64,000 bases of DNA, from assembly GCA_963555705.1 (NCBI GenBank), contig OY743174.1:57062234-57126233 (forward strand), given 5' to 3'. This document shows positions 6,009 to 56,863 of this stretch, piece by piece (the first letter of the stretch is position 1; every line of letters starts with the position of its first letter). The DNA comes from Ligustrum vulgare. Lineage: Eukaryota; Streptophyta; Magnoliopsida; Lamiales; Oleaceae. Under the pieces are notes generated by a model. It did not search any database. It was not told where the DNA came from and saw nothing but the letters and a program-made list of their open reading frames with translations. The position numbers were made by a program, and so were the translations under genes.

Positions 6009-6763
6009 CTACCTCACACGACATCACGGTAGAATGGGAGTCAGAACTTCATCATAACCTGTAACTATAAGTCAAAACGGCCTTTATGTTCGATTTTCTA
6101 AGTTTTGACGAGTCGGTGAGTTTCCTTCAGGCGAATTTCTTCATCTTTGACTTAGAATAATATGTTATTTTTTCTAAATTTTTGTATTGTTAACTAGAAA
6201 TTTCATTTTCTATTTAGTAATGATGTGGATGGATTCTAATGAAGAGGCGGATACAAACATGTTTTAATTTGTATTTACTATTTAAAAATTCAAGTAATGA
6301 TCCCAAAACCAAATTAGACCAAACCAAACCAGAATCGATTTGATTCCATATTTTTAAAAAAACCAATTAGTTCGATTATTAAAAACTCATCAATTTATAG
6401 TTTGATTTGGTTCTTCTGGAATCAGAATCAAATCGAATCGAACCACGTCCATCCTTACCCCAGTGTATATCATATCAAAATCAAAAAATAAAAAAAAGGT
6501 TAGAAAAATAAAAATAGAGGACTTTTGGATTGAGCTCGACTGAAAAAAATGATTTCATTCGTCTCCCAAAGACTAGACTGATACAGTCATACAGTTGCTT
6601 CTACGAGTTCATTCCACAGGGGCTCTCCCGATTACACCCGTTTTCACTTGTAAGTTCAACGAAGTTTCATGAATTTTTGCTAAATCCTACTATATGCCTT
6701 GCGTGATTTCGTATAAAGGGGTTGTTCGTTAATTTTCCTTGGACATTGTTGTAAGAAGCTTCA

Positions 6764-8950
6764 ATGGCTGTAAAGCCTTCGTCTTTGAGGTTTTGCTGGA
6801 GAATTCCTAAATTGATTTCTTCAAACGCCTATCTTTCTTCAATTTCTTGTGAAAGTAGCATCCAATCCTACCCAGAAACCCATCAAAACCAATCAGATTC
6901 CTCCGAGTTCGAAGCAAAGATTCAATTTTTAAAGAACAAGCTTCACCCGGATAGTTTAGTTTCTGTTTTGGATAGCACGCCTGATTTAAACTCTTCAATA
7001 AAGCTATTTAAATGGGCTTCCCTTCAAAACCGATTTAATCATACCGCAGATACATATTATAGGATAATACTGAAGTTGGGAATGGCTGGAAATATTGAAG
7101 AAATGGAGGGATTTTGTATTCAGATGGTTAACGATAAATGCTCGGATTTCGGAGAATCTCTCTTGGCATTGATAGATTCATTTGTTAAAAATCACAGGCT
7201 CAATGAAGCTTTAAGGGTTCTCTATGTGATGAACTTAAGCAGTTTTAAGCCCTCTATAGGTGTATTTAATACAATAATGCGTGCACTTTTGGAGGAAAAG
7301 AAAGAATTTAAAGATGTATTGTTCGTCTATAAAGAAATGGTGAAATCGGGAATTCTTCCAGATATCAATACTATGAATTACCTGTTAGATTCATTGTTTG
7401 AGGCTGAGAAAGTTGATACAGCTTTGGATCAGTACAGAAGATTGCATAAGAAAGGATGTAATCCTAATAGTAGGACTTTTCAGATACTTATTAGTAGTCT
7501 TGTTGCTAGGAATCGAGTGGAAGAATCGATTATTTTGCTTGACGAGATGTTTCAAATTGGATGCGAGCCGGATTTGAGTTTCTATATCCATGTAATACCA
7601 ATATTCTGTAGTTTGCAAAATCTTGAGGTAGGGATGAAGTTGCTTAGAATGATGAGAGCTTCTAACATCACTCCAGATTCAGCTACTTATGCGGCTTTGA
7701 TAAATTGTTTTTGCAAGTATCTTCGCTTGGACGACGCTACAAAACTTTTTGAAGAGATGATAGATTGTGGCTTTTCGCCTGAAGAAGATACTTTTTTGGA
7801 TATAGTAAACGGGTTTTGTAAATTAAATAAATTTGCTGAAGCTATTATGTTTTTGGAGGAGAAAAATGTAACCAACACTTCTCCTTACAATACACTTCTT
7901 GAAGCCTTTTGTGCCACTGGTAATTTCTCTATGGCACAAAGCATGTTTTATAGAATGTTTGGGAGGAATATAACTGATGCTTCATCTTGCAATATCCTTA
8001 TCAGATTCCTTTGTGAGAATGCAGCAATTAGTAAAGCGCTGGCGTTTCTATGTAGGATGATTGTTTCTCTATTTGTTCCTGACTCTGCTACTTATTCTGC
8101 TCTTATCATTGGTAACTGCAGAATGGGGAAGTTTGAGGATGCTCTGTATTTGTTTTCCACCGTTAGATCTAAATGTTGGGTTTTGGATTCTGTCTCTTAT
8201 GCTGAACTTGTTGAATGTCTTTGCCGAAGGGAAAATTCTCAAGAGGCAGCTGAAGTCTTTTGCTACATGTCTAGGAGGGGTTGCGCGCTTCAATCTACCT
8301 CTTTCGATAAGTTGATCGAGGAGATGTGTGCGAGTGGAAAGGTCGACAGTGCTTCCAGGTTACTGTCGGTGGCTTACTACTTTGGTACCGTCCTTTTTTG
8401 TTCTACTTACAATAGTATCATGAGAGGTTTATTTAAGTTAGGCCACATGGATGATCTCTTGGTCATGGTTTCAAAGATGATGGTAGTTGGTTGTGCGTTT
8501 GACGAGGAAACTTACTGCATACTTATTCGTAGCACGAGTGCTCTCAATCGAGTAGCGGACTCCATCTCGTTTCTCAACTCGATGCTCGGGGAGGGGTTCC
8601 TACCTGATTCTGATACATTAGTTTGTTTATTGCGTTGTTTAGCGAAGTATTCTCGAGTGCACTTAATCTTGTCATCATTACATAAGCTTACCTCCGAGTC
8701 CGAAACTCTCGATTCTGTGACTTACAACCTGTTGATTAACGGCCTCTGGGGAGAGGGATACAAAGGTGAGGCAAAACAATTGCTGGACTTGATGTTGGAG
8801 AAGGGTTGGGTCCCGGATGCCGCTACTCACGCGTTACTGATGGGATCTGTCTCGAAAGAAGAAATCGAGTTCCAAAAATCTGCTCATGAAAATAGTGGCA
8901 AGTGTGATATGGTCAGTAGCATACTAGCAGAAGGCTTGGTGGAAAGATGA
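6764..8950 (+). CDS. P-class pentatricopeptide repeat (PPR) protein, organelle-targeted
   Basis: One exon encodes 728 residues, normal for a long P-class PPR protein. Residues 1-35 are rich in Ser, Arg and hydrophobic residues with few acids, as in a mitochondrial or plastid transit peptide. From about residue 130 to 690 there are successive 35-residue helical repeats, for example TYAALINCFCKYLRLDDATK, PDSATYSALIIGNCRMGKFE and VTYNLLINGLWGEGYKGEAK. There is no C-terminal E, DYW or SMR domain. PPR proteins bind organelle RNA base by base and act in processing, stability or translation; the target cannot be read from sequence by eye. The start is the first ATG of the frame, after a 5' leader with stops. 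I did not assign an orthologue. The frame is intact, so the gene is probably functional. Confidence 0.95.
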   Translation: MAVKPSSLRFCWRIPKLISSNAYLSSISCESSIQSYPETHQNQSDSSEFEAKIQFLKNKLHPDSLVSVLDSTPDLNSSIKLFKWASLQNRFNHTADTYYRIILKLGMAGNIEEMEGFCIQMVNDKCSDFGESLLALIDSFVKNHRLNEALRVLYVMNLSSFKPSIGVFNTIMRALLEEKKEFKDVLFVYKEMVKSGILPDINTMNYLLDSLFEAEKVDTALDQYRRLHKKGCNPNSRTFQILISSLVARNRVEESIILLDEMFQIGCEPDLSFYIHVIPIFCSLQNLEVGMKLLRMMRASNITPDSATYAALINCFCKYLRLDDATKLFEEMIDCGFSPEEDTFLDIVNGFCKLNKFAEAIMFLEEKNVTNTSPYNTLLEAFCATGNFSMAQSMFYRMFGRNITDASSCNILIRFLCENAAISKALAFLCRMIVSLFVPDSATYSALIIGNCRMGKFEDALYLFSTVRSKCWVLDSVSYAELVECLCRRENSQEAAEVFCYMSRRGCALQSTSFDKLIEEMCASGKVDSASRLLSVAYYFGTVLFCSTYNSIMRGLFKLGHMDDLLVMVSKMMVVGCAFDEETYCILIRSTSALNRVADSISFLNSMLGEGFLPDSDTLVCLLRCLAKYSRVHLILSSLHKLTSESETLDSVTYNLLINGLWGEGYKGEAKQLLDLMLEKGWVPDAATHALLMGSVSKEEIEFQKSAHENSGKCDMVSSILAEGLVER

Positions 8951-23455: not shown

Positions 23456-23880
23456 TAAATGCTAGAAGACAAGTGCTTACGTAGAAGTAGAGTCGTATGG
23501 TTGAAGGAGACAATGGGTCTTTACATGGTTTGAACCTAACCTTACCTAACCTTTTAGATTCGTTCCCATGGCTCAATCCTTTCGCCGGCGCCTTTTACTT
23601 TAATGGACTTTTTGTACATGACTATGGAGATTTAAGTGCTAAAAATTTAAAAGTTGAAGAGCCAAAGAAATGTGCACCGTGCTATTGATACATATCTGAA
23701 TCTGATGTCAAAAGATACATTTAACAGGGCTCTAATTCGTGGAAGAATCACCTGCTTTTATTTTCAGCTTTGTGCCTTAATTCTACTTTTTCTAAATGAA
23801 TATAAAGTTGGTTGTCTGACTCATGTTACCCTCAGCAAAAAAGGAGGGCAGTATCAGATAATTTTAAATAAATTGATTAA

Positions 23881-24074
23881 TGTTGTGATACTATCAAAAT
23901 CTAACAACTATTAAAGAGAGAGAGATGGAGGGAATGGGAGAATTCTTCTCATTAAGAGGTACATTTCAAATGAAGATTTAAGCCCCTATTTATAGGAAAA
24001 ATATAACAAGTCATTAACACAATAATTTACAATATAAATTAGGTAGAAGTTAGGTAAGGGATTAATTTACAACA
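23881..24074 (-). repeat. 3' LTR of the 6.6-kb element
   Basis: 194 bp, TGTTGTGATA to TTTACAACA. Matches the copy at 30288-30489 with about eight substitutions and a missing GGGCAAAA-type stretch. Confidence 0.92.
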
Positions 24075-24102
24075 CTCCCCCTTGAATGACTTATTGCTCA
24101 AT

Positions 24103-24895
24103 TGTCTGCCTCGTTAAAACATTGCTAAGAAAATTAGATGGGATAAAACTTGAGCGAAGGAAAAAGAGTACAGCTGCTCCCCCTGATGTTGGCCATTATT
24201 AATCATTGAGTCTAATATCCAAAATGACATTCATGATAAGTAGTACAAATCATGTACTGCAAACTTGAAGTTATGAAGTGTTGCCTTCGAATTATGAAGT
24301 GATGAATTGCTTCAGTGCTTTAGTGCTGCCTCGTTAAAACCTTGTCAGTAAAACTCAATTGGACAAAATCTGAACGAAGGAAAAAGAGTACAACCGCTGC
24401 CTCGTTAAAACCTTGTCAGGAAAACCTAGTGGGACAAAACCTGGACGAAGGAAAAAGAGTACAGCATGATTCTCCTCCTGAAGTGTGCAATCAAGTATTC
24501 ATGAACCTTTTGAATAATGATATCATCTTTCGTTTGGAATATGTATATATGAAAATCTTCTTGTGTGTAGCCGATATCATAACATTTTTCATAAGATGTC
24601 TATGATTTTCTTCATTTGTTGATATCATTCCAGATGTCTATGATTTTCTTCATTTGTTGATATCATTCCAGCACAATTTAAAGAGAGAGCTTGTTGTTGA
24701 ATTATTACTTGCAGATAGCTGTGATAATGTCTCAAAAACCTTGTTAGGAAAACCCTATGGGACAAAACCTTAGTGAAGGGAAAAAGAGTATATTATTCTC
24801 ATTGATACGCCATAATTGCTGCCTCATTAAAAATCTTGTTAAGAAAACCGTGTGGGACAAAACCTTAGCTAAGGGAAAAAGAGTGTAGCGCGTAT
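24103..24895 (-). repeat. Five copies of a conserved 3' UTR motif
   Basis: Units near 24110, 24328, 24397, 24733 and 24821 share CTGCCTCGTTAAAACCTTGT, then AGGAAAACC, GGGACAAAACCT and GAAGGAAAAAGAGTAC in this order. On the sense (minus) strand they precede the polypurine tract. The same phrase is widespread in the 3' region of plant LTR retrotransposons. A separate 38-bp tandem duplication (GATGTCTATGATTTTCTTCA) lies at about 24594-24669. Confidence 0.85.
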
Positions 24896-27094
24896 TTGTT
24901 CCCTTCATAGGAATATCACAAGTATATTAATGCAATCTCAAATTATTTCATCAAACATATAGTTTGTGATGAGCTTTTATAAATAGTTTATAACTCATTT
25001 ATAATGTCATAGCTCATTTATAATGTACTGAACATGCTATACCAAGCAATGTTTAGTTAGTTGACTGATTGCATTACTCAAATCTAGAATTGATTCACTT
25101 CTATCAAAATCTAGAATTCACTTCTGATGAATAATTAAATATTCATTTTCAAATTCACTTCTGGTGAATATTCATTTTCGGTGGATAATATAATTTTGCA
25201 TATTGAAAATCAATTACATGCCCAAATATTCAAATATAATAATAGTACATTTCAATTTCATTTTCAACATATTATATTATGGGGTCATATGTATCATTCT
25301 TCATGTGATTTTATTTTAAGAATCACATTTCATTCTATAATGATACTATTCTGAGCAAATTGAATCTTTCAATGATTTATACATGTATGTTCTTGCATTT
25401 TATAAACCGCAATTTCTAATTTGTAGGAGTATAATCAATCATTGAAATAGATATTAATTTCGACATATAATCTATAATCATTTCGCTTGAAATCTCAACG
25501 TACCGCGATCAACTGGTACATCAAAGAAAACTCTCAAAGTACCGATATGAGAATCACACTTTTTGATCTCACTCATTGGTATATCAAAGAGCTCAAACTA
25601 GTGATATAGATTATAGTCCCATCCACCATATGTCATGTCAGTTCTCTGAAAAATTTCGAGCGCAACGAGTCGTCTTTTACGACTGTGTAATATTTTTCAT
25701 TTTTACAAATAACTACTGACATTACACATTTAAGTGTTTTGGACTTCGGGTCCTATAACAATAATCCCTACATTGGGATTTTATACTTGGCCAAAGTATT
25801 ACAATTTCATCAACCTCATTTTCATAAGAGGGTTGTCTATGTATGCAGTCGACTTATTTATCAATTCCATTTCATCTCAATATAAACACAACATAGAGAG
25901 ATCTCTTTGTATATTCTATCATCTCATTTAACTATGTCCCTTTTACTCACTATGAGTATTTAGCCTCAAATGGATCATCTCAATTATTCAAGAGATATTT
26001 GTTTTTGGAATCGATTGTCATTATGCTTCAGGCATAATTACGCTTTAAGCTTGATCACGCTTCATGCATGTTATTGTTTAATTTCCCCATAATATTCAAG
26101 AATCTTATATTATATCAGTTGGCTAAAAATGTCGCAACACATGTCATACGTAATTATGGATATAATCACAATCATATATCAAGTGCGTATTGTTGGAGTG
26201 TATATAGATATCGCACTTCTTAGAAATCATAAAACTTTACAAGCTAATCTTTATTTCATCTTATTGACATGTTTGTATGTAAAATATTGTTGCATGAGAA
26301 ATATTTAAATTCAAATTGTTCTCATAGCAAATAACTTGAGGCTTTTAATCTGCTAAACCATTAGCAATATAATATTCTATTATCTCAACTAATTCGTAAA
26401 ATCATTAATGACTTTAAGATATATTCATGCTAGCATTTATCACTTTACTTGTAATATCATTACTTGAGCAAATAATCAGTCATTCATTTTCTTAGTGAGA
26501 TAATTATTTTGTCTTTGAGAACAAGCAGCAATGATAACTTGTTAACCTGAACAATCTTATGGTTCTTTAATGAATATCATTTTGCATTCTCAATAAATCT
26601 TATTATTGAATTGGAATCTAACCAATAATTATAGAACTTCAGGTTCATCAAGATATTTCACTTGTACATATGTATGAACTTCTGGTTCAATACAGTATTC
26701 ATTTCATCAGTACGTATTTCTGTATAGTACAAATCAGTATACTTTTATTAGTGTACCGAAAAAATCAGGTACAATCTGAAAAAATCAGGTACAATCTGTA
26801 TGTTCTCAATATTGTCGCCAAATCTTCCCTCATATCGAAAAAGGTAATGACGCATTATCTCATTGTTCCTACCTTTTCAATAATTTATTCCATTATTTCT
26901 TGATGGAATCGATATCACGCGGAGCTCTCCTTTACCCGTTTAAATAATGTATTTAAATAGATCATTTGGGAAGAGATTAGATCCATAAAAAAATAGATGT
27001 TATATTATTAAATATTCGCAAATATTATTCTAATCTTCCGGTAAATGTTTTGAAAAAGATTTACCGAGTTCGACTTGAAAGATTGAGACTGCTG

Positions 27095-27538
27095 ATGGAT
27101 CAAGATATTACAGAAGATGTTCGTTGGTTGATCGAAGCAAAAGTTCAATTAGCTGGTGAATTACCAGATTCATTTTCTAAGCACATGTCTGGCTTAGGTA
27201 TGAGTACTTTTGCAAAGAAGCGAAGAGCAAAAAGATTGAAAGGTTGTTACAAATGTGCTCGATGGACATGTAATACCTATTGTAAGTCAGTAGGATATTC
27301 ATCCATAAATCGAGATGATAAGATAGACTTCATTAAGGGTGGACTGAGTAAGGAGTCATTGGATGATATCCGATTGACTATTGAGACGCACCCTAATGGG
27401 TATGTGCAGCGTGAACTACTATCTTTATGGGCTAAATTCATCAGCGATAAAGAGCGTTATAGTCTCAAAAATATAATAGCAAAAGATCTTATTTGCCAGG
27501 CTATTATAAACAATGACGTTTTGGCTATTCAGCATTGA
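27095..27538 (+). CDS. Cysteine-rich zinc-finger-like protein resembling flexivirus nucleic-acid-binding proteins
   Basis: 147 residues from the ATG at 27095; the frame is open back to 26981 without another ATG. Residues 37-49 are a basic cluster (STFAKKRRAKRLK), followed by C51-x2-C54-x4-C59-x3-C63 and, about 20 residues on, a DFIKGGLSKE segment. A basic arm directly before a CxxC-type finger and a closing FI-x2-G motif is the arrangement of the small cysteine-rich nucleic-acid-binding proteins of carlaviruses and relatives. Members of that family bind RNA and DNA, and some act in the nucleus. The N-terminal helix-rich part and the C-terminal 70 residues are unlike that family, so it is a distant or composite relative. 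It lies antisense inside an LTR element, 282 bp before the LOG-like ORF. No stop or frameshift was seen. Homology is judged by eye and may be convergence. Confidence 0.55.
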   Translation: MDQDITEDVRWLIEAKVQLAGELPDSFSKHMSGLGMSTFAKKRRAKRLKGCYKCARWTCNTYCKSVGYSSINRDDKIDFIKGGLSKESLDDIRLTIETHPNGYVQRELLSLWAKFISDKERYSLKNIIAKDLICQAIINNDVLAIQH

Positions 27539-27820
27539 TACAAGGTAAATCAGTATATTGTATGTATATATTTGCACATATATTTATAAAATATTTTCAT
27601 GTTTCATTTCTCGATCATTGATAAAGTGTATTGAAAAATCACAGAAAGGTAAGCTTTATCAAAAGTAGAGTAATTTAATCAGAAGTAGGTTTTCACTTTT
27701 TCAAAAGACGAGCTGTAAATAGTTAGGTTTTTCGAGTTTAAAAAGCCAATGATTTTCACAATTTCATGCATCCCAAAATATCATTTTCTCATAAGTTTTT
27801 CCTTCATTATACTCTCAAAG

Positions 27821-28474
27821 ATGGAAGGACCAAAACTTCGACATATCAAAACTATCTGTGTATTTTGTGGGTCAAAAGTAGGGAAAGGTTTTGGGTATCT
27901 AGAAGTAGCAGTGGATCTTGGAAAGAAATTGGGAGAGAAATGTATCAACCTAGTATATGGAGGAGGTAGCAGTGGATTGATGGGTTGTGTTTCCCAATCT
28001 GCTCTCACAGAGCGAGTAAAAGTGATCGGTGTTATACTTGTTCCTTTGGTAGATATTGCAGGCAAAACACGAGGGCATGAAGTACAAACCTTATCTATCC
28101 ATGAACGCATAACTTGCATGTTATATGGTTCTGATGCCTTTATAGCTCTACCTGGAGGTTTTGGTACTTTAGAAGAAATCTTTAATATTACCTCATGGGC
28201 TCAACTGAATCTCCATACTAAGCCTATTGGGCTTTTAAATATTAACAATTTCTTTGATGGTTTGTTAACATTTCTTGATTATGCTGTGGAACAGGGATTC
28301 ATCTCTCCATTTTCTAGGAGAATCCTTATTTCTGCTCCTACTATCGAGGAACTGCTGGATAAGTTGCAATCATATATCCCCATACAAGATCCAGCAGGAG
28401 TTAAGATTGATTGGTCGCAAGGAAGGGGAATCAAGCGAAAATGGAGTCCGGTTAATGTAAACTTAACTTTGTGA
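27821..28474 (+). CDS. LOG-like: LOG-like cytokinin riboside 5'-monophosphate phosphoribohydrolase, intronless
   Basis: 217 residues in one exon. Start chosen at MEGPKLRHIKTICVFCGS because plant LOG proteins begin just before this strand; an in-frame ATG at 27749 would add 24 hydrophobic residues. LOG enzymes release active cytokinin bases from nucleotide precursors in the cytosol. Landmarks: VFCGS (about 13-17), YGGGSSGLMG (45-54), VIGVI (72-76) and the PGGFGTLEE nucleotide-binding motif (114-122), then SWAQL, KPIGLLN, VEQGFISP and SAPTIEELL. The length is normal for plant LOG. Oddities: plant LOG genes normally have several introns, so this copy looks retroposed. The usual RKAEM segment before PGG is RITCM, so three of five positions differ and catalysis is doubtful. 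It is antisense within the LTR element, downstream of the cysteine-rich ORF. Confidence 0.85.
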   Translation: MEGPKLRHIKTICVFCGSKVGKGFGYLEVAVDLGKKLGEKCINLVYGGGSSGLMGCVSQSALTERVKVIGVILVPLVDIAGKTRGHEVQTLSIHERITCMLYGSDAFIALPGGFGTLEEIFNITSWAQLNLHTKPIGLLNINNFFDGLLTFLDYAVEQGFISPFSRRILISAPTIEELLDKLQSYIPIQDPAGVKIDWSQGRGIKRKWSPVNVNLTL

Positions 28475-28484
28475 AACCTAGAAT

Positions 28485-28690
28485 ATGTGGTGGTAGAGTA
28501 CGGTGTATTCTCACTCTTGAGACACACCATAAATTTCTAGGATTTTATCAATGTTTAATCTTGTGTACCTCAAAGATTTAAGGTGGTAGAGTACGAAGTA
28601 TTCTTACTCTTGAAACACACCTCTTTGAATGTTTCTTTATTTCCTCAAAAGATCAGAGGTGGTAGGATACGGCTACTCCCGAAACACATC
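28485..28690 (+). repeat. Three-copy repeat after the LOG-like ORF
   Basis: Units near 28488, 28582 and 28651 follow the pattern GGTGGTAGAGTACG, a short variable part, ACTCTTGA or CTCCCGA, then ACACACC or ACACATC, separated by 40-50 bp of AT-rich DNA. The GGTG start and CACC end of a unit could pair as a stem. They begin 14 bp after the LOG stop codon. Confidence 0.75.
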
Positions 28691-30287
28691 TCTAATTTTG
28701 AGGATCATAAATGTTTCCCCCTTTTGTATTTTGCATGTATGACTCGTTTATACTTCTTCAGGAGTAATAATAATAATATCATTTCAGTATGTTTAGATGA
28801 TAATTTTTACTTCTTCTGGAGTAAATATGTACTTCTTCTGGAATACATAAGTGCTCGTACAAGAACTTTTCCAGACACTTATCATCTAATATTCATCTCA
28901 TAATACTGATGAGATTATTTTCACATTAGCCATATCCATGCTATCATGTGATATTATCTTATCATACATCAACATTTTTCTTATTGGATAATTCATTTTT
29001 ATTTATCTTTTCAATACAGATAATGGTAACTTCCTGTACCGTTTGATAAAATATTTTTATCAACATTCACCAACGTTTTGGTAATGATAACTTCTGGTAT
29101 CATTTGATAAAATATTTTCTAATTTTAGTATTGAAAACTTCTGGTATCATTTAATGAAGTATCAAATAATAATAATATCGTATATATATATATATATATA
29201 TTGAAAATAATAATACTGGGGTTATACCACCACGTATATATATTGACAACAACCTCTAATATGTTAGAATTAACCAACAACTGAGGTGTTTCTGAAATAA
29301 TATAAAATATGAATATATGTAAAGTATTCCATATATTCAATTGATAAACCGACCATATAGGCGGTGTCAACATAATGAAATAATTACCTTTCATGAGTGA
29401 GCGAATCATATCTTCAAATCCAGTCAAGGTATTCATAATAGTCAAATCCGTTACGATAATGAGTCATATCCAGTTAAGATATAAATCCAGTCCATAATAA
29501 CTCAATCCATCAAGGTATGACAATGATTATATTACTTATACCTTGTTTAAAAATTTTAATTTATCTAGTTGATCACATATTAATCGTTAATTTACGACTA
29601 ATATACTTTTATATATTACCAAGGGAAAAATGGTTCATATTTTAATAAATTGCTTATATGGATAAATCGAAACCGCCAATAGGTTTTAAATTTAATTTAA
29701 AACAAACTTACTTTTGGTCCGAAGTTCAAAATCCCGTCGGAAGTGCTCCAAAAACAGTTTTTAAGAAAATCGTCACGTTCGACCGCCGAAAAATTTCAAA
29801 ACTGCACAAAACAGAAAAGTAAGATCATAGAAAAATCCAAAACATCAAGACGAACAAACTGCCTTTTGACGTCATCGCCGGATTCGCTATCACTCGCCGT
29901 CACAACATCCGTGCATGGTCCTCACGTGCTTCACGCGCCACCGTGTCGATGACTCTGCCGTCGACACGCGCCGATGCCGGAGGATCGTCCCGTCGCCGTG
30001 GTCATGGATCTGGTCTCCGATCATCGTTTGGATATATGGTTTTGTGTGAATTTGCTTTGAAAGTTTCGGGTTACACATTTTTTTTTAATTTTTTCTATAG
30101 ACTTGGAATTGATTTACTAATCTATGATGTATAAATGATTTTCTAACACCAAAAACACTGGATTTGGAAAATGAAATGTTGATTAATAATAATCTGATTT
30201 CTGATACAGAGGTTCATCATTTAGATGCAACTGTAGAGCATACTCTCGTCATATTACTCAATAGGTTAGAGACTCGTGTTGATAACG

Positions 30288-30489
30288 TGTTGTGAAACTA
30301 TCAAAATCTAACAACTATTAGAGAGAAAGAGATGGAGAGAATGAGAGAATTTTTCTCATTAAGAGGTGCATTTCAAATGAAGATTTAAGCCCCTATTTAT
30401 AGGAAAAATATAAGGGCAAAACAAGTCATTCACACAATAATTTACAATATAAATTAGGTAGAAGTTAGGTAAGGGATTAATTTACAACA
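30288..30489 (-). repeat. 5' LTR of the 6.6-kb element
   Basis: 202 bp, TGTTGTGAAACTATC to TTTACAACA, followed by the target duplication ATTAA. Carries minus-strand TATAAATAGGGGC, the probable promoter of the element. Confidence 0.92.
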
Positions 30490-30494
30490 ATTAA

Positions 30495-38227: not shown

Positions 38228-38638
38228 TGGTATCAGAGCTATTTGATTCACATTGCCTTCGAAAAAAAAAAAAACGAAATCAGCGTGCATCTTTCTTCTT
38301 CGCAAAAAACCCTAAACCGTACTGTTTCACGAATTTCGAGGCACTTGCAGTAGGAATTCCGGTGAACTAAGACCATATTCAGAATCTGCAGGTGGAGCCG
38401 CGTCGACCGGAGTGGCGCATGAGATTACACGCGCCGGTGTAAGGCGGCGCGTGAGTCAGGTAGTCGGATCTTCTGGTGGCGCGTGGGGGCGCGTGCGGCA
38501 GTTCCTGGCGGCACGGTTGACGGATTTGCGATCGACTATTCATCCTCTATCTGCTTGTGGTGTTGGTTTTCAGTCATCCATTCTTTTTACACACTGCTTT
38601 GCTTGACTTTGTTGGTTAGTATCGTTTTCTCTCTTTTA

Positions 38639-41600
38639 ATGGCATCCGATGATTCTCTTCAGGCTATTAATGTGCGTTTGAATGGTAAAAACTATGCTTA
38701 CTGGAGTCATGTTATGAAACACTTTCTTAAGGGTAAAAAGTTGTGGGGTTATGTCAGTGGAATAGTTGAGAAACCGGAAAATAATGATGCAAATTATGCA
38801 ACTCTGTTAGATAACTGGGATTCAAATAATTCAAAAATTCATACATGGATAAATAATTCTGTAGAACATAGTATTGGTACACAGTTGGCTAAGTATGAAA
38901 CGGCAAAGGAGGTTTGGGACCATTTGCAGAAGTTGTACACTAAATCTAATTTTGCAAAACGATATCAGTTAGAGATTGACATTCGAGCATTGCAACAAAA
39001 GAATATGAGCATTCTGGATTTTTATACTGCTATGACATCAATTTGGGATGAGTTAACTCTTACTGAACCGGCAGGTCTGAAAGCAAGTGCGGATTATATT
39101 ATTTATAGAGAGGAGCAACGATTGGTTCAGTTTTTGATGGCACTTCGTAGTGATTTTGAGGGACTCAGAGGTTCTATTTTGCACCGTACTCCTCTTCCAT
39201 CTGTTGATTTAGTTGTTAGTGAACTTGTTGCTGAGGAGACACGGTTAAAATCCCTTACTGAAGATGTATCTCTTCCACATTCTGGGACTTCAGTTTTAGC
39301 TTTACCATCTACACAGAATCGAACCAAAGGACATACACGGTTCCCAAATGATGTTTGTAGTTTTTGTAGACAAAAGGGACATTGGAAGGCTCAATGTCCT
39401 AAGTTATTAAAGTCCCAGCAGTCTTATAGATCCAATGCCCACACAGCAGCGATTGTTCCACCTGTTGGCTCCTCTATACTTGGTCCACCGCCCTCATCTG
39501 ATTCCCGATTGACTGATCTTAGTGAGCAGTTTCAGAAGTTTTTAGCCTCACAGTCACATGTCATGTCAGCCTCTACTCATGTAGGTTTGTCCTCTCAGAA
39601 CTCCTCAGGTAAAACCTCCTCGTGGATTTTTGACTCGGGTGCTTCTAAGCATATGTCTCCTAACTCATCACTTTTTGATTATTTATATCCTTCTATGTCA
39701 TCTTCACCTGTTATGACTGCTGATGGCACCCCGTTGTCCTTAGCAGGTGTTGGTTCTGTTCATACTTCTAATCTATCTTTATCAGATGTCTATTGTGTTC
39801 CTGACCTTACTTTAAATCTTATTTCTGTTGGTCAATTATGTGATTCTGGTAATTCTGTTCACTTTACTTCTACTACTTGTTATGTACAGGATCCGCAGTC
39901 TCGGAAGCTGATTGGGATCGGCCATAGGCAAAGAGGAGGACTTTATGTTCTAGATAATCTGAGACCAGCGCATGTTGCAGCCTCTAGTACTGATTTATCG
40001 TCTTTCCATTTGAACTCTTCTTCTTCTAATTTCTATTTATGGCATTCTCGCCTAGGACATGTGTCTGCTAGTCGTTTGAGATTTTTAGCTTCTAAAGGTT
40101 GTTTGGGAGACTTAAAACCTCATGATATTTCTGATTGTAGTGGATGCAAACTTGCTAAATTTTCAGCTTTACCTTTTCCTCGTAGTATTTCTTCTTCTAT
40201 TGCATCATTTGATCTTGTACACTCAGATGTATGGGGCCCTGCTCCTGTTTCTACTAAAGGAGGATCCCGATATTATGTTTCCTTTATTGATGATTATAGT
40301 CGTTACTGTTGGGTATATCTTATGAAGCGACGTTCTGATTTTATTTCTATTTATCGTTCGTTTCGAGCACTTATTAAAACTCAACATTCTGCTGTCATTA
40401 AATGTTTTCGATGTGATTTGGGTGGGGAATATGTTTCTAATGATTTTCGTGAGTTGCTTGCTCTTGATGGTACAATTCATCAAACTTCTTGTACTGATAC
40501 TCCTCAACAGAATGGTGTTGCTGAACGTAAGCATAGACACATTGTTGAAACTGCTCGTTCCCTTCTCCTATCTGCCAAAGTACCTAGTGAATTTTGGGGG
40601 GAGGCAGTTCTCACTGCTGTCTATTTGATAAATAGGATACCATCTTCTCATTTATCTGGTTTGTCACCATTTCAAACCTTGTTTAGTTATTCTCCTGATT
40701 ACTCTCTCTTAAAAGTCTTTGGGTGCACTTGTTTTGTTCTTCGTCCTATGGCAGAACGTAGCAAATTAACTCCACGCTCAGCTATTTGTGTCTTCTTAGG
40801 ATATGGTGAGGGACAAAAAGGTTATCGATGTTTTGATCCTGTCAGTCACAAGTTATATGTCTCTCGTAATGTTGTGTTTCTTGAACACATTCCCTTCTTT
40901 TCTATTACAGATAATACCTCTCACATGACCACGTCAGATCTCATTTGTATTGATCCTTTCACTGATGATATTGATAGACCATCTACATATGTCCCTACTA
41001 TTTGTTCTCCATCTTCGTCATCTGCTACAGGTACACATGCGCCATCTCAGAATGTCCTTCCTTCTCCTATGGATCCCCAAGCACCGTCTGAGGCTGAGGA
41101 TTCGCAGTCTCCTCCTCCTCGATATCCTCAACGTATACGTAAGTCTGCTCACTTACCCGAGTTTGATTATTCTTGTTATTCTGAGTCCTTTTGTTGTTTT
41201 TTGTCTTCCATTCATAAGCTTTCTGAACCTTCCTCTTACAAAGAAGCAGCTTTAGATCCTCTTTGGCAACAGGCTATGACTGATGAACTTAATGCTCTAC
41301 ATAAGACAGACACTTGGGAATTAGTTTCTTTACCACCAGGAAAACATGCTATTGGATCTCGTTGGGTCTATAAGATCAAGACCAAATCTGATGGTTCAGT
41401 TGAGCGTTACAAGGCTCGATTGGTTGCTAAGGGATTTTCTCAACAGTATGGCTTGGATTATGAGGAGACATTTGCCCCTGTTGCAAAAATGACTACTGTA
41501 CGTACACTTATTGCGGTTGCTTCTATTCGTCAGTGGAGTCTCTCTCAAATGGATGTTAAAAATGCCTTCTTGAATGGAAATCTTCAAGAAGATGTTTATA

Positions 41601-42754
41601 TGGTTCCTCCACCTGGTGTTCCTCATTCTCCTGGATTTGTTTGCAAACTTAAGAAAGCTCTATATGGTCTCAAACAAGCACCTCGTGCCTGGTTTGAGAA
41701 GTTTTCTACAGTTGTGCTCTCTCTTGGTTTTACATCTAGCCATCATGATTCCGCTTTGTTCTGTAGATGTACTTCCACTGGTCGTATTCTCCTTCTGTTG
41801 TACGTTGATGACATGATCATTACTGGTGATGATGTTGTAGGGATAACCAATTTAAAATCAGAATTGGCTCGTCTTTTTGAAATGAAGGATTTGGGTCCCT
41901 TAACTTACTTTCTGGGGATTGAGGTTGCTTCTTCTCCTCGAGGTTATATGCTCTCTCAGTCTAAATATGCTGCAGATGTCGTTGAGCGTACTCGTCTTAC
42001 TGATACTAAAACAGCTGATACTCCTATTGAGGCTAATGTTCGTTACTCATCTTCTGATGGTAAACCACTGTCTGATCCTACTTTGTATCGTACTATTGTT
42101 GGTTCCATTGTTTATCTTACCATTACTAGGCCAGACATTGCTTATGTTGTGCATGTTGTCAGTCAGTTTGTTTCAGCACCTACCATGGTTCACTGGGCAG
42201 CGGTTGTTAGAATCTTGCGCTATCTTCGCGGCTCTTGCTTTCAGAGTATTTTATTCCTATCGACCTCCTCCTTAGAGCTTCGAGCTTACTCTGATGCAGA
42301 TTGGGCTGGGAACCCAACTGATCGTAAGTCCACTACTGGCTACTGTGTATTTTTGGGTGACTCTCTTATCTCATGGAAAAGTAAGAAGCAGACAGTAGTT
42401 TCTCGCTCATCAACTGAAGCAGAATATCGCGCTATGGCCTCCACTACTACTGAGATTGTGTGGTTACGTTGGCTACTTGCAGATATGGGTGTTTCTATTT
42501 CATCTCCCACCTCTATGTATTGTGATAACAAGAGTGCCATCCAGATCTCACATAATTCAGTGTTCCATGAGCGCACGAAGCACATTGAAATTGATTGTCA
42601 CCTTGTTCGTCATCATCTTCAGCATGGGACTATTGCCTTACCTTTTGTCTCTTCATCATTGCAGCTTGCAGACTTCTTCACCAAGTCCCATCCGACTTCT
42701 CGCTTCCGATTCTTACTTGACAAACTCTTGTTGCTTCATGCTATAGCATCGTGA
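38639..42754 (+). CDS. Copia gag-pol polyprotein, intact
   Basis: 1,371 residues from MASDDSLQAINVRLNGKNYA; the frame is open 52 codons further upstream, but this Met begins the conserved gag. Order: gag with zinc knuckle CSFCRQKGHWKAQC (about 238-251), protease DSGA (about 332), integrase with HHCC finger (HSRLGH, CSGCKLAK, about 470-515) and catalytic core (SFIDDYSRYCWVY, DLGGEYVS), reverse transcriptase with LLYVDDMIIT (about 1055), and RNase H (YSDADWAGN, STEAEYRAM, CDNKSAIQI). The domain order PR-IN-RT-RH defines Ty1/copia. All catalytic motifs appear present and no stop occurs, so it could encode an active element. It is expected to yield virus-like particles in the cytoplasm and reinsert cDNA through integrase. 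Confidence 0.97.
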   Translation: MASDDSLQAINVRLNGKNYAYWSHVMKHFLKGKKLWGYVSGIVEKPENNDANYATLLDNWDSNNSKIHTWINNSVEHSIGTQLAKYETAKEVWDHLQKLYTKSNFAKRYQLEIDIRALQQKNMSILDFYTAMTSIWDELTLTEPAGLKASADYIIYREEQRLVQFLMALRSDFEGLRGSILHRTPLPSVDLVVSELVAEETRLKSLTEDVSLPHSGTSVLALPSTQNRTKGHTRFPNDVCSFCRQKGHWKAQCPKLLKSQQSYRSNAHTAAIVPPVGSSILGPPPSSDSRLTDLSEQFQKFLASQSHVMSASTHVGLSSQNSSGKTSSWIFDSGASKHMSPNSSLFDYLYPSMSSSPVMTADGTPLSLAGVGSVHTSNLSLSDVYCVPDLTLNLISVGQLCDSGNSVHFTSTTCYVQDPQSRKLIGIGHRQRGGLYVLDNLRPAHVAASSTDLSSFHLNSSSSNFYLWHSRLGHVSASRLRFLASKGCLGDLKPHDISDCSGCKLAKFSALPFPRSISSSIASFDLVHSDVWGPAPVSTKGGSRYYVSFIDDYSRYCWVYLMKRRSDFISIYRSFRALIKTQHSAVIKCFRCDLGGEYVSNDFRELLALDGTIHQTSCTDTPQQNGVAERKHRHIVETARSLLLSAKVPSEFWGEAVLTAVYLINRIPSSHLSGLSPFQTLFSYSPDYSLLKVFGCTCFVLRPMAERSKLTPRSAICVFLGYGEGQKGYRCFDPVSHKLYVSRNVVFLEHIPFFSITDNTSHMTTSDLICIDPFTDDIDRPSTYVPTICSPSSSSATGTHAPSQNVLPSPMDPQAPSEAEDSQSPPPRYPQRIRKSAHLPEFDYSCYSESFCCFLSSIHKLSEPSSYKEAALDPLWQQAMTDELNALHKTDTWELVSLPPGKHAIGSRWVYKIKTKSDGSVERYKARLVAKGFSQQYGLDYEETFAPVAKMTTVRTLIAVASIRQWSLSQMDVKNAFLNGNLQEDVYMVPPPGVPHSPGFVCKLKKALYGLKQAPRAWFEKFSTVVLSLGFTSSHHDSALFCRCTSTGRILLLLYVDDMIITGDDVVGITNLKSELARLFEMKDLGPLTYFLGIEVASSPRGYMLSQSKYAADVVERTRLTDTKTADTPIEANVRYSSSDGKPLSDPTLYRTIVGSIVYLTITRPDIAYVVHVVSQFVSAPTMVHWAAVVRILRYLRGSCFQSILFLSTSSLELRAYSDADWAGNPTDRKSTTGYCVFLGDSLISWKSKKQTVVSRSSTEAEYRAMASTTTEIVWLRWLLADMGVSISSPTSMYCDNKSAIQISHNSVFHERTKHIEIDCHLVRHHLQHGTIALPFVSSSLQLADFFTKSHPTSRFRFLLDKLLLLHAIAS

Positions 42755-45757: not shown

Positions 45758-48700
45758 TCAAAATTCTAACAAGTTAAGAGAAATTAAAGTATCTTTAAAT
45801 TTATTTATGAGTATTATTTTAGTTCCTGTATCTGCAGGATTCAACTGAGTTGGGATTTTAACAAGTTTAATAACCCATTTTTCAGTTATATCCCTAATAA
45901 AATGAAATTTAACATCAATGTGTTTGGATCTATTATGAAAAACAAGATTCTTGCACAGGTATAAAGCACTTAAACTATCTGTACTCAGTTCAATAGCAGA
46001 ATCATTAATACAAGAGATTTCAGATAACAAACCTTTTAACCAGATACACTCTTTCACTGCATCAGTGGCAGCAATATATTTTGCCTCAGTTGAGGACAGT
46101 ACCACAAGTTTCTGTAATTGTGATTTCCAACTAATACATGTACCATTTAAAGTAAAGAAATATGCAGAAGTAGACTTCCTATTGTCAATATTACCTGCAA
46201 AATCTGAGTCTACATAACCATTTAACTTGAAATCATTTTTGGTTCTAAAAAATGCTAAACTCAGATTTGCAGTGCCTTTAAGGTATTTTAAAAGTGATTT
46301 AACAGCTTCCCAGTGTAACTCACCAGGGTTACTCATAAACCTACTAAGAACACTCACAGCAAAGACAATATCAGGTCTAGTACACACCATAAGGTACATT
46401 ACAGATCCTATAGCATTAGAATATGGTACATGTTTCATCCTAAGTTCTTCTTCTGCAGTTTTAGGACAATGATCAGAAGATAATTTGAAATGAGCAGGCA
46501 AAGGTAAGGATACAGGTTTAGAATCAATCAAATTAAATCTGGTCAGAACTTTTTCAATATAATGCTTTTGATTTAAATATAGATTCCCAGATAGTTTATC
46601 TCTAAATATGTCCATACCCAAAATCCTTTTAGCATGCCATAAATCTTTCATTTCAAATTCAGAATGCAATTTGTTTTTCAACAGGTTTATTTCATGCATA
46701 TTAGGCCCAGCAATTAACATATCATCAACATATAACAACAAATACATGAAATCAGAATTATCAATCTTGAAATAAAAACAAGAATCATATTGGCTCTTTT
46801 TAAAATTTAGGCTTTGGATATAAGAATCAAACCTCTTATACCACTGCCTAGGTGCTTGTTTCAAGCCATATAGGGATTTTTTCAATAGACAAACTAAATC
46901 AGATTTCCCCCCTTTTTCAAAACCTTTAGGCTGATTCATATATATAGTTTCATCTAAAGATCCATATAGAAAAGCAGTTTTAACATTCATTTGTTCAAGT
47001 TCTAAATTAAAATGAGCAACAAGAGCAAATAGTATTCTGATTGAAGTATATTTAACCACGGGAGAAAATATTTCATTGTAATCAATTCCTTCTTTTTGAG
47101 AAAAACCCTTAGCCACAAGTCTAGCTTTGTACCTAGGTTTAACATCTTTTGGATCACTTTCCTTTATTTTAAAAATCCATTTGCAGTCAATGATCCTTTT
47201 ATTATAGGGTCTATTAACCAAAATCCAAGTGCCATTTTTCAGAAGAGAATCCATCTCTTCCTGCATGGCAACCAACCATAAATTTGATTCTTTTGATGAA
47301 ACAGCTTCTTCAAAAAATTCAGGTTCAAAAACAAGAGGATCAGAATAAGTATATGCAGACACAAAATCAGGATCCTGAAACTTAAGAGGTGGTCTTATCT
47401 CCCTTGTAGGTCTATCCCTAGCTAATTGATAATTATCAAGGTCTGTTTCAGCTTCAGGAATATTACAAGGCAATGGTGAAGTCTCAGTCAATACAGGTTC
47501 AAGATTGTCATTTTGAAAATGTGGGGGTAGCTCCACCTGAAACTGAGTATGGGGCAGGCCATTTTCATCACCTAAATGGTCTGCACTCAGCTCAGTGGTA
47601 AGAAAGTCTTTATCATTTACAGGATCATCTAATTTTTCATTTTTACAAGGAAAAACAGTTTCATTAAAAATGACAGACCTACTTAAAATAACCATGTAAC
47701 CTCTCTGCTCCCTAACCTAAAGTCTATAGTCCTTGACCCCTTCTCCATATCCTAAAAACACACATTTCAGAGATCTGGAGTCAAGTTTTGTTTCAGTTTG
47801 GTGTGAGTAGGCAGCACACCCAAAAATTTTCAATTTTGAAAAATCTGGAAGAAAATTATTCCAAATCTGATCAGGTATTTTGAAATTAATTGCACTGCAG
47901 GGAGAAAGATTGATCAAGTAAGAAGCAGTTTTAACAGCTTCTCCCCAGAAAATTTTTGGCATGTTAGAATCAAGTAGAAGACACCTAGTTCTTTCTAAAA
48001 GAGTTCTATTCATCCTTTCAGCAACCCCATTTTGCTGTGGACTGTATGCAACAGTTCTATGTCTAAGGATTCCTAAGTTGGTACAGAAAGAATCAAAGTC
48101 TTGGTTGCAAAATTCTAATCCATTGTCAGTCCTAATTATTTTTACCTTCTTATCCTTCAAATTTTGGACTAAGGTAATCCAGTTTTTAAAAACAGACACT
48201 GTAGCATCCTTAGTTTTCAACAAATGAACCCAAGTTTTCCTAGAAAAGTCATCTACAATAAGAAGAAAGTACCTATAACCTGAGACAGAATTAACAGGAG
48301 CTGGACCCCATAGATCAGCATGTAAATATTCAAGAATATCAATAGATTTATGAATACCTTTACCAAATGAAGTCCTTTTCTATTTTCCTAACACACATTT
48401 TTCACAGAATTCAAGTTTATGCAGCACATCATTACCAAAAACATCTTTGTTTTCAAGTAACTTAAGACCTTTTTCACCTAAGTGTCCTAATCTTTTATGC
48501 CATAAAACAGTTTTGTCCACATCAGACACAGCATTAAAAGATCTTGCATAAACAGGTAAGGTATTCAGCACATAGATCCCATTAATTTTGGGAGTAGAAA
48601 AAATCATCAAGTTACTTTTGAAAATACTTAAGTAACCATTAAACATTCTAATCTCATAAGATTCAGAATCAAGAACACCAAGAGAGATTAGATTTCTTTT

Positions 48701-49872
48701 CAAGTCAGGAACATATCTTGTTTGGTTTAAAACAAGAGTTTTGTCATTATCAAGTTTTAACAAAACCTTCCCAATTCCTTTCATATCACATTTAATATTG
48801 TTACCAAGCTTCACAGATCCAAAATAATCAAAACAGAAGTCAAAAAATAAGTTTCTTTCAGGACACATATGAAAAGTGCAACCAAAATCAAGTATCCATT
48901 CATGTTTGTTTTCAGATTCAGTGGTAACATAAACCACTCCATTATTGTCTTGGACTGCAGCCTCTGTTTGATTACTGGTTCCTATTTCATTTTTCCTTTT
49001 GAAACAATTTTTGATATGATGTCCAGGTTGGCCACAATAATAACAAAGTCTATGTCTATTTATGTTATCAAGTCCCCCAGAATTATCTTGCCCCCTGACA
49101 TTATTCTGACTTCTATGATTGTCTTGATTTCTAGAATTATCATAACCTCTAAAATTGGTCTGATTTCTAGAATTATTTGGTCCTCTATAGGTGTTATCAT
49201 TAGACCTATTGAATATTGTTCTATTTTGGAAATTCCCTCTTGCACGCTTATTATTAACATTATTCCAGGTTCTAACATTGCTATAGGTATTCCAATTTTT
49301 ATTGAAATTACTCACTGGCTTATTATTCTTAAAAGGAGTCTTCTTCTTAAAGGATCCTATCACATTATAAGCCTCTTTAGGATTGTTCTTGAACTCAAGT
49401 TCTTTGTTTTTAAGAGAAATGTGAACAATTTCAGTAGTTAATTTATGTCCTCCATATTCAAGAGCATTTCTAAGGTCTTTGAACTTATCACCATAGCATT
49501 AAGCAAACACACAACCTTTTGTTCATCAGTTAATTTTTCATCGCAATTTAACAGACTCTGTGTAATCTTGGTAAACCTACTCATGTTCTCATCTACAGCC
49601 TTTGAAGGATCAAATTTAAAAGAGAAATATTGTTTCCATAGAAAGCACTTATCAGGCAAAGAAATAGTAGCAAAAACTTCTTCCAGTTTATCCCATAATT
49701 CCATAGTAGTTTTAGTCTTGCCTACTTGTCTAATGACATTATCAAATAAGTGTAAGAACAGAGTACTCCATGCAATTTCATCCATTTCAAGCTGTCTATC
49801 CTGAGGGGTGTCAAGAGGCCAGGACATATCTATAGCTTTAGCACATTTCATTTGAAGTAATAAAGCCTTCAT
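45758..49872 (-). pseudogene. Gag-pol of copia element 2, interrupted
   Basis: Gag begins near 49872 and contains a zinc knuckle (CYYCGQPGHHIKNC). Protease has an altered WILDFGCTFHMC where DSGA/C is expected, so the catalytic Ser is Phe. Integrase (DNGLEF, SPQQNGVAERMNRT), reverse transcriptase (LLYVDDMLIAG) and RNase H (SSTEAKYIAATDA, DSLSALYL) follow in copia order. Breaks: a frameshift near 49440, a TAG near 48378 after CVLGK and a TAG near 47714 after KDYRL. The RT-RNase H part (45758-47695, 645 residues) is open. The element may still be moved by proteins from relatives. Confidence 0.95.
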
Positions 49873-52847: not shown

Positions 52848-55800
52848 TTACTTGGAATCCATCACAGCCTGCTCGGTACAAAACTCGAGCTTCTGCTTGG
52901 TACCAACCTTGGTCAACATGTCAGCAATATTTTTATCGGTGTGAATCTTTTCCAACTGCATTAACTTCTCGTCAACTGCTCCACGTATCCAATGATACCT
53001 CACATCAATGTGTTTAGTACGAGAATGGAAAGTAGAATTCTTACTTAGCTCAAGAGCACTCTGACTATCACAATAAATGACGTACTCACCTTGCTTCAAG
53101 TTAAGCTCCTCAAGAAACTTTCTCATCCATATCATCTCTTTACCTGCTTCGGTAATTGCAATATACTCAGCCTCAGTTGTAGACAAAGCCACACATTTTT
53201 GCAATCTTGACTGCCAAGAAACAGCTCCCCCTGCAAAAGTAAACAAGTACCCAGATGTAGACTTTCTGTTGTCAAGATCTCCTGCCATATCTGCATCTGT
53301 ATACGCTATCAAAACTGGTTGAGCTCCCCCGAAACCCAAACACAAAGTAGAAGTTCCCCTGAGATACCGCATAATCCATTTTACTGCTTCCCAATGATCT
53401 TTGCCCGGATTAGACAGAAATCTGCTCACCACGCCAACTGCATGTGCAATATCTGGACGAGTACATACCATAGCATACATCAAACTACCAACTGCTGAAG
53501 AATAGGGTACTACTTCCATCTTCTTCTTCTCTTCACTCGTTGAAGGACAAGATCTTTTGGTAAGTTTCAGATGACCCCCAAGAGGTGAGCTAACTGATTT
53601 AGCTCCTTTCATACTGAACCTTTCAAGAACCCGTTCAATATATTTTTCTTGTGATAACCACAACCTCTTAGATTTTCTGTCTCGAATTATCTCCATGCCC
53701 AATATCTGTTTAGCCGGCCCCAAATCTTTCATATCAAATGACTTATGTAAGGCTTCTTTCAATTTCTTGATCAACCCCACATCCTGGCCAACTATAAGCA
53801 TATCATCAACATAAAGTAGTAAAATAATAAATTTGTCACCTAGAAAAGATCTGATATAAACACAAGAATCTGCAGTCGTCCTTGTGTATTCCTGACTGAC
53901 CATAAAAGTATCAAACTTTTTATACCACTGTCTTGGTGCTTGCTTGAGCACATACAAACTTTTCTTCAATTTGCATACAAGGTGTTCTTTCCCCTTTTGT
54001 TCAAAACCTTCTGGTTGAAACATATAAATCTCTTCCTCCAAGTCACCAAGTAGGAAGGCAGTCTTCACATCAAGTTGCTCCATTTCTAGGTCTAGGATGG
54101 CTGCTAACCCCAAAACAACTCTGATGGATGTCATTTTCACAACAGGAGAGAAAATCTCATCAAAATCAATACCATATTTCTGCCCAAAGCCTTTAACAAC
54201 CAAATGAGCTTTGTACTTCATCAAATCACCATTACCTTCACGTTTGATTTTATATACCCATTTATTTCTCAATGTTTTCCTACCCTTAGGAAGATTCACC
54301 AATTCATAAGTATCATTCTTCCTCAAAGAATTCATCTCTTCTACCATTGCTTTCATCCAGTGAACTTTATCTATGTTAGCCTGTGCCTCAGAAAAACTTT
54401 TTGGCTCCCCATCAGTAGTAAGCAAAATATAGTCAGAAGTAGGATACCTAGTAGATGACCTGTGATCTCTGGTAGATCTTCTGACATGTGCTTCTTCATC
54501 TTCTTTTGTCCCAGGTATTTGCTCCCCCTCATAAGCATTCTCATCAGCTAGTATATCATCATGAGCAATGTCATCAACATTGTCATTAATGGGAGCTAAG
54601 TTCTCTTCAACAATAGGTTGTGATGTTGAAGTGCTTGTAGATGCGAGATCAGGAACAACTGCAGTCACTCTAGGCTGCTCCAATTTATCCAAATCTTTAA
54701 TGGTTTGGTCTTCATGAAAGACCACATCTCTGCTTCTCACAATCTTCTTTTTCTCTGGATCCCAAAATTTGTACCCAAACTGTTCATCACCATAGCTGAG
54801 AAATATACAAGGAGTAGCTCTATCATCAAGTTTCGATCTCTGTTCCTTAGGCACGTGCACAAAAGCTTTGCACCCAAACACCTTCAGATGAGAGTAGGAA
54901 ACATCTTTTCCTGTCCAAACTCTTTCTGGAATATCAAAATCCAAAGGAACAGGTGGAGATCTATTGATCAAATAGCAAGCAGTCTGAACTGCTTCACCCC
55001 AAAACATTTTTGGTAGCTTGGCTGTCTTCAACATGCATCTGACTCTGTCAAGAATGGTACGGTTAATTCTTTATGCCACACCATTATGTTGAGGAGTACC
55101 TGCTTTTGTAAACTCATGTCGAATCCCAAATTTTTAGCAATAATCCCTGAACTCATGTGAAGTGTATTCCCCACCATTATCTGTTCTGAGACATTTCAAG
55201 GGCTTCGCTGTTTCTCGTTCTACAATGGCATGAAACTGTTGAAAACTCTTAAATACCTGATCTTTAGATTTCAACATATAAACCCAAAGCTTCCTAGAAG
55301 CATCATCAACAAATGTGAGGAAATACTTATTTCCACCCAAAGAAGCTACATCGCTAGGAGAGCACACATCAGAATGCACAAGTTCTAAAATATCATGTTT
55401 TCTTTTAAATGAACCACTAAAAGAAACTCTGTGCTATTTACCATATAAACAATGATCACATTGGTTTAGCGACATACATTTGGCTAAGGGAATAGATGTC
55501 TTCTTATCCAGAACCTGCAAACATTTTTCACTCATGTGACCAAGTCTCTTGTGCCATAAATCAAGAGAAGTGTACATTCACCTCATTTTTACAAGCTTTT
55601 GCATAAGTCTTGTAAAGCGTGCAACAAGCTTTTCCTTTGGCAACAATCAAAGTGCCCTTTGACAATTTCCAATTCAAATCACCGAATCTGCTATAATAAC
55701 CCTGTCTGTCAAGAGCCATAACTGAAATTAGATTGAGGCGCATATCAGCAATATGCCTCAATTCATTCAGTATCAAGGAGTAGCCAAGTTCTGTTTGCAA

Positions 55801-56826: not shown

Positions 56827-56863
56827 TTTAATTCACACAATCCAACAGAAGCTCTGATACCAC

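Follow-up and report, generated by a model that had tools for sequence, protein, structure and literature searches.

A Viral-Type Nucleic-Acid-Binding Protein Gene Paired with a LOG-Like Gene in LTR Retrotransposons of Ligustrum vulgare

The 64,000-nt stretch of the Ligustrum vulgare genome analyzed here (OY743174.1; "the window," to which all coordinates refer) contains a complete 6.6-kb long terminal repeat (LTR) retrotransposon whose only long open reading frames (ORFs) encode a protein resembling the cysteine-rich nucleic-acid-binding proteins (NABPs) of flexiviruses and, directly downstream, a LOG-like protein. The same two genes, NABP then LOG, recur in this genome in four families or subfamilies of LTR retrotransposons (A to D, the window element belonging to A), in antisense orientation in families A, B, and D and in sense orientation in family C. 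We think it rather probable, judging from homology, recurrence, and codon constraint, that plant LTR retrotransposons possess a conserved accessory cassette of two genes, a silencing-suppressor-like NABP and a captured LOG, and that the window element holds one copy of it.

Results

Identity of the two genes

The first ORF (27095 to 27538, + strand) scores above the Pfam cut-offs of two viral models, Carla_C4 (27.6 bits against 20.9) and Viral_NABP (24.9 against 23), so that the resemblance to flexivirus nucleic-acid-binding proteins claimed in the initial annotation of this DNA holds up in a profile search. The window copy encodes a shortened form of a 182-amino-acid (aa) protein: its frame is open from 26981, and its first ATG lies at 27095 since the ancestral start codon (26993 to 26995, +) reads ATA here. 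That codon is still ATG in 26 of 30 copies fetched from the genome, where NABP is ~182 aa long. The zinc-finger-like motif CX2CX4CX3C (CYKCARWTCNTYC, 27245 to 27283, +) is preceded by a basic KKRRAKR arm (AKKRRAKR at 27212 to 27235, +), and the same finger spacing occurs in 103 of the 120 relatives listed among the 240 recovered at E up to 1. Apart from P0001, the listed relatives are 54 to 71% identical to the window copy, and 15 of 15 relatives are hit by both viral models at E up to 1. Neither model matched any of four control proteins (gag pieces, three of them with zinc-knuckle matches) at E up to 10, in searches where HMMER filters discard most matches above 0.1. We take the match to be more than chance because of the 240 relatives, the controls, and a ratio of nonsynonymous to synonymous divergence (dN/dS, or omega) that is lowest in the true frame (see below). 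On this sequence evidence we regard NABP as a homologue of the flexivirus cysteine-rich NABPs, and movement from virus to transposon would be the simpler reading of its history. A profile search of the Protein Data Bank with NABP returned no match, and a search of IMG/VR for related loci yielded 56 pattern matches, none of them confirmed.

The second ORF (27821 to 28474, +; 217 aa) is a complete, intronless LOG-like gene whose start codon, the one common to its relatives, lies 282 bp past the NABP stop, just as first annotated. It matches the Pfam family Lysine_decarbox/LOG at 113.6 bits and belongs to the subfamily TIGR00730 (154.5 bits against 96.35); against the equivalog NF058542 (NCBIfam) it reaches 96.7 bits, below the cut-off of 300. 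The closest solved structure is that of At2g37210. LOG-fold homology and the motif PGGxGTxxE with a catalytic-type Arg characterize the LOG of the window family, and the window copy retains the Arg (codon at 28106) and Glu (codon at 28175) common to solved LOGs, including At2g37210, residues that we take to be catalytic. Among 121 LOG rows, this Arg is present in 113 and the Glu in 118. Most simply, it would descend from a host gene for cytokinin riboside-monophosphate phosphoribohydrolase that was captured long ago.

Copies of the pair and anatomy of the window element

With NABP as query, a search of the genome (1.385 Gb, 51 contigs) turned up 8303 first-look candidates. The 150 that were scored all reach >=86% identity, and 139 of these 150 have no internal stop, in a list ranked by protein similarity and hence biased towards intact copies. 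The corresponding search with LOG gave 9646 candidates, 150 of them scored. All 30 NABP-ranked copies that were fetched (L001 being the window) have LOG sequence, complete or partial, following NABP on the same strand, which excludes the possibility, raised in the initial annotation, that the ORFs occur only in this copy. Conversely, all eight LOG-ranked copies fetched (L035 being the window) have NABP sequence upstream, truncated or broken in three. The NABP frame is free of stops in 23 of the 30 NABP-ranked copies, and LOG is full length without indel or stop in 7 of them. In A and B copies a TATA-like box stands upstream of the antisense pair (TTTAAATAGAT in 27 of 30 copies; TATTTAAATAGAT in the window, 26950 to 26962, +), and a putative splice-donor-like sequence directly follows the NABP stop (ACAAGGTAAAT in 25 of 30; CAAGGTAAAT in the window, 27541 to 27550, +).

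The window element occupies 23881 to 30489 and is flanked on both sides by the 5-bp target site duplication (TSD) ATTAA (23876 to 23880 and 30490 to 30494). Its left LTR (23881 to 24074, 194 bp) and right LTR (30288 to 30489, 202 bp) align with 186 matches, 8 mismatches, and 8 gap columns. A TATA-like CCTATAAATAGG within the LTR (~30391 to 30403 in the right copy) and a polypurine tract, AAGGGGGAG, adjoining the left LTR (24075 to 24083) both lie on the minus strand; the element is therefore transcribed from right to left, the right LTR being its 5' LTR and the left its 3' LTR, and the + strand ORFs are antisense to it. Two LTRs, a 5-bp TSD, and a polypurine tract and promoter in one orientation mark it as an LTR retrotransposon. 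The sequence at the primer-binding site (PBS) position, CGTTATCAACACGAGTCTCTAACC, adjoins the 5' LTR (30264 to 30287, -).

The initial annotation had described the element as lacking retrotransposon proteins, and tblastn with the gypsy proteins of a family C copy (c046, described below) and the copia pieces of the window indeed found no gag-pol in it; the same queries found nothing in copies L031 to L034 or L053. The further claim that its only uninterrupted ORFs are antisense stands for ORFs of >=150 aa, of which NABP and LOG are the only two; shorter open frames are also present. Inside the element, then, these searches showed neither the gag-pol of an autonomous element nor, apart from the pair, any ORF of >=150 aa. 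A copia motif search near the copia ORFs elsewhere in the window gave no match, and no relics of copia gag-pol were detected in the element. The LTRs of one fetched copy, L034, are identical over the 184 bp compared, and those of another, L032, differ at 3 of 184 positions, so the window family moved recently. We conclude that the window element belongs to a multicopy, apparently nonautonomous short-LTR family that carries the pair in antisense.

Four families and two orientations

Families A and B are both short-LTR elements with LTRs ~75% similar. Family D comprises many near-identical copies, and the pair is present in the one copy read (L053), which has TGGTATCAGAGC, presumably an initiator-Met primer site, on its minus strand and NABP and LOG on its plus strand. 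Family D copies also occur in tandem, for example at 31.67 to 31.69 Mb of G000:C10, several of them with a constant spacing of 6.2 to 6.9 kb, as expected for LTR-internal-LTR-internal arrays.

The pair is present in all eight family C copies. In c046 (L061, L051, L052), the pair is preceded on its own strand by gag, protease, RVT_1 reverse transcriptase, RNase H, and an integrase interrupted by a nested insertion, and is followed by a purine-rich tract and then a long 3' LTR; c046 is a Ty3/gypsy copy that has the pair, in sense, at the env position, past integrase and ahead of the 3' LTR. That gypsy pol stands beside NABP in c046 as a chance neighbor is disfavored: the sequence that follows pol is shared with six other family C copies, from the end of the integrase ORF onward in five and from ~1 kb further in for c043. 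A PBS-like TGGCGCCG, which we take to be an Athila-type primer site, lies on the NABP strand in five of the six upstream stretches and is missing from that of c043. The sense arrangement of family C agrees with a gene model from Rhamnella in which the end of a gypsy integrase (58% identical to that of L051) runs into NABP. The family C LOGs (L043 to L050) have a longer C terminus, and their long ORFs persist even though both residues of catalytic type, Arg and Glu, are lost.

Between families A and D, NABP is 79% identical at the amino acid level with a dS of 0.91, and the adjoining LOG is 93% identical with a dS of 0.44; family D is also placed differently in the NABP and LOG trees. Given this unequal divergence and differing placement, each of the two genes may have passed between families on its own. 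The suggestion in the initial annotation that the pair is a mobile cassette or captured cargo survives as regards mobility; capture by one element does not, since the pair resides in four families or subfamilies and each of its genes is also known from several other plants.

Selection

Omega was estimated by the NG86 method for 30 copies of NABP and for LOG in 16 of the same 30 NABP-ranked copies, 14 having been omitted for indels or partial length. In the true frame the median is 0.252 for NABP and 0.277 for LOG, the lowest of the six frames in each case; the five other frames range from 0.36 to 1.09 (NABP) and from 0.47 to 1.21 (LOG). For five NABP copies taken from LOG-ranked loci, one of them the window, the value is 0.22. 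Between families, omega is 0.15 (A-D), 0.24 (A-B), and 0.21 (A-C) for NABP and 0.077 (A-D), 0.28 (A-B), and 0.29 (A-C) for LOG. Both genes are under purifying selection between families, and the dN/dS comparison proposed with the initial annotation is accordingly not neutral.

These values bear on an alternative in which the antisense transcript, rather than the proteins, is what matters, the + strand RNA regulating the element by way of double-stranded RNA. Such a role has been raised for other antisense ORFs (PMC7264820), and it would suit the antisense orientation in A, B, and D and the TATA-like box conserved on that strand in A and B copies. The frame-specific codon constraint and the sense orientation in family C, however, point to selection at the protein level, and we hold this alternative to be very improbable.

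Relatives in other plants

The listed NABP relatives include named rows from Orobanche, Xanthoceras, Populus, Acer, and Rhamnella, and in two gene models of Orobanche gracilis NABP runs into LOG. In the NABP tree (67 rows; the bootstrap had not fully settled), families A to D group with Orobanche (94/97, not starred), Xanthoceras groups with Acer (100/93), and two Populus rows fall inside one clade of 11 (87/82), a topology that fits an old and mainly vertical spread as far as these sequences can tell. The LOG tree (58 rows, midpoint-rooted) includes only three host LOGs, and a transposon location is established for a minority of its other rows. With 100/100 support, the three host-type LOGs make up a clade that sits on a long branch (0.78); P0184 and two Xanthoceras rows are closest to it, and the remaining rows, A to D included, lie beyond. 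Diospyros LOGL10 clusters with LOGs from retrotransposons of this genome, and two others, Populus LOGL10 and Primulina LOG3-like, lie outside the clade of host LOGs. As these three illustrate, genes assigned to the LOG family in plant annotations may in some cases belong to retrotransposons.

Other features of the window

Near its 3' LTR, the element carries a 59-nt repeat five times on the minus strand (24115-24173, 24335-24393, 24406-24464, 24734-24792, and 24829-24887; span, 24115 to 24887). Outside it, an uninterrupted 1443-aa copia-type polyprotein frame, its first part confirmed as gag by Pfam, occupies 38423 to 42754 (+) and belongs to a possibly intact copia element; two further copia-type elements lie at 45758 to 49498 and 52848 to 56832 (-). 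An uninterrupted 731-aa frame at 6755 to 8950 (+) has, by eye, the look of a pentatricopeptide-repeat host gene.

Discussion

Silencing is a main restraint on transposons, and for that reason the likeliest role of NABP would be to weaken it. In the mechanism that we propose, the pair would be transcribed apart from the genomic RNA; where it is antisense, it has a TATA-like box of its own on that strand in A and B copies. NABP, like the silencing-suppressing cysteine-rich proteins (CRPs) of carlaviruses and allexiviruses, would bind nucleic acid through its basic arm and finger and so weaken RNA silencing of the element family in trans. A LOG that is still catalytically intact would raise the level of active cytokinin in the cell, and more cytokinin would favor dividing cells, in which new insertions get inherited.

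The NaBP of sweet potato chlorotic fleck virus combines a CX2CX4CX3C finger with an RRARR arm and is implicated in silencing suppression (PMC5179071), the CRP of potato virus H (PVH) suppresses local silencing (PMC3689765), and allexivirus CRPs are silencing suppressors (PMC10335701). Sequence of betaflexivirus type is, moreover, known to be endogenous in plants, as replicase in cucumber (PMC3136472).

Several of our own results and of the published ones weigh against a silencing-suppressor-like cassette. The family C NABP passes the Carla_C4 cut-off narrowly (21.0 against 20.9) and misses that of Viral_NABP (21.5 against 23). The predicted NABP structure is of low confidence (predicted local distance difference test, 64.6; predicted template-modeling score, 0.34), and its best viral match in a fold comparison is weak (E 0.15); six of the top 12 viral fold matches are named as flexivirus NABPs, silencing suppressors, or similar small proteins, their virus families being as we presume them. 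The PVH finger has a different spacing, CX2CX9CX4C, and chrysanthemum virus B p12 did not suppress silencing locally (PMC3689765). In the family C LOG, Arg is replaced by Ser and Glu by Gln, and this protein is probably inactive, as its sequence suggests. For either gene (8 and 6 copies), omega among family C copies is ~0.8, a value expected if most differences arose after insertion and compatible also with relaxed constraint. Despite its identical LTRs, copy L034 has an open NABP and a broken LOG frame. Among the seven family C copies viewed upstream, pol directly precedes the pair in c046 only; in the 6 kb upstream, none of the other six has pol of the c046 type, c044 having distant pol-like matches (32 to 38%) on the sense strand at 4.2 to 6 kb and c048 one fragment on the opposite strand. 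Finally, a test for linkage of NABP and LOG in other species through equal-sized contigs was not significant and was dropped (3 same-source matches against 1.1 expected, P ~0.1; 108 x 49 rows, contigs under ~30 kb only).

Family C bears most directly on what LOG does. Because its LOG has Ser and Gln, the cytokinin role cannot hold for every family, and this residue loss makes it less likely, at least as read from sequence, that LOG is retained in general for activating cytokinin. A second explanation accordingly keeps the accessory cassette and drops the silencing role: NABP would be a nucleic-acid chaperone or a nuclear-entry or transcription factor, and LOG a structural partner instead of a hormone enzyme. 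A CRP is reportedly described as a transcription factor in a study cited by PMC5179071. Five of the six gap-free family C copies compared (two of eight, with gaps, were left out) carry no stop even though their LOG lacks both catalytic-type residues. The NaBP of carlaviruses is also implicated in nuclear localization (PMC5179071), the protein of the Grande antisense ORF is nuclear (PMC7264820), and one carlavirus CRP is described as lacking local silencing suppression (PMC3689765). Against this stand the LOGs of the window type, which keep their catalytic-type residues and whose omega between A and D, the lowest that we obtained between families, fits an enzyme. On balance we consider a cassette without a silencing role unlikely, if well worth keeping in view.

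The neutral alternative is capture of a virus-like cDNA and a LOG retrocopy, which nonautonomous elements would since have copied along without any function. The loss of one or both ORFs in many of the 30 copies and the omega within family C are what such cargo would leave behind. Omega between families (0.077 to 0.29), the degree of identity retained with the listed relatives, and the recurrence of the same pair in the same order in four families or subfamilies already disfavor it, and we judge it improbable.

Our preferred reading, that of a silencing-suppressor-like NABP joined to a captured LOG, can be carried further, though only tentatively. A domesticated RNA-virus silencing suppressor and a cytokinin-activating enzyme would then form a mobile cassette for anti-silencing and cell division. 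In one orientation or the other, this cassette would have moved among unrelated retrotransposon families throughout the eudicots, with selection preserving it for tens of millions of years; we find this stronger version possible, and somewhat doubtful.

Comparison with known systems

Carlavirus and flexivirus NABPs, as represented by Carla_C4 and Viral_NABP, share with the retrotransposon protein the finger, the basic arm, and the stretch that precedes it, and both cut-offs are passed. The retrotransposon NABP differs in its length of 182 aa, in an extra conserved C-terminal part (NREDKIxFIKxGLSKESLD...), and in being encoded by retrotransposons.

A YgdH/LOG domain, likewise an extra ORF of LOG type, is on record for Citrus and Populus in consensus sequences of Gypsy elements (PMC9289625, citing Steinbauerova et al. 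2011); the available part of that account does not extend to a NABP partner, orientation, or phylogeny. Here, LOG comes second in a two-gene pair and occurs also in a multicopy antisense family. We found no report of NABP, or of the pair, in retrotransposons among open papers in PubMed Central (PMC); LOG-type extra ORFs in gypsy are thus already in print, and NABP and the pair appear, within that literature, to be new.

The extra ORFs known as aORF-3S and aORF-3R (those of Grande, RIRE2, Retand TRP28, and the env-like ORF of Athila) likewise lie between pol and the 3' LTR, in sense or antisense, and like the NABP-LOG pair they are kept across copies and species (PMC7264820, PMC11963269, and PMC11728184). 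Beyond domains such as SMC and transposase 28, no clear resemblance of antisense aORFs to other proteins is described (PMC7264820), whereas both genes described here have clear homologues, in RNA viruses and in host LOG, and form one pair found in both orientations, depending on the family. The origin and function of the antisense extra ORFs are called unknown (PMC7264820, PMC11963269), and recombination with an unknown virus is one origin that has been offered (PMC11963269). An identifiable virus-type gene makes the idea of viral origin testable: do plant transposons carry viral-type silencing suppressors? A parallel is offered by insect R1 long interspersed nuclear elements with a tobamovirus-like helicase, which likewise hold a gene of plant RNA-virus type for which silencing is discussed, and which differ from the elements described here in transposable element class, host kingdom, and viral protein (PMC4686597).

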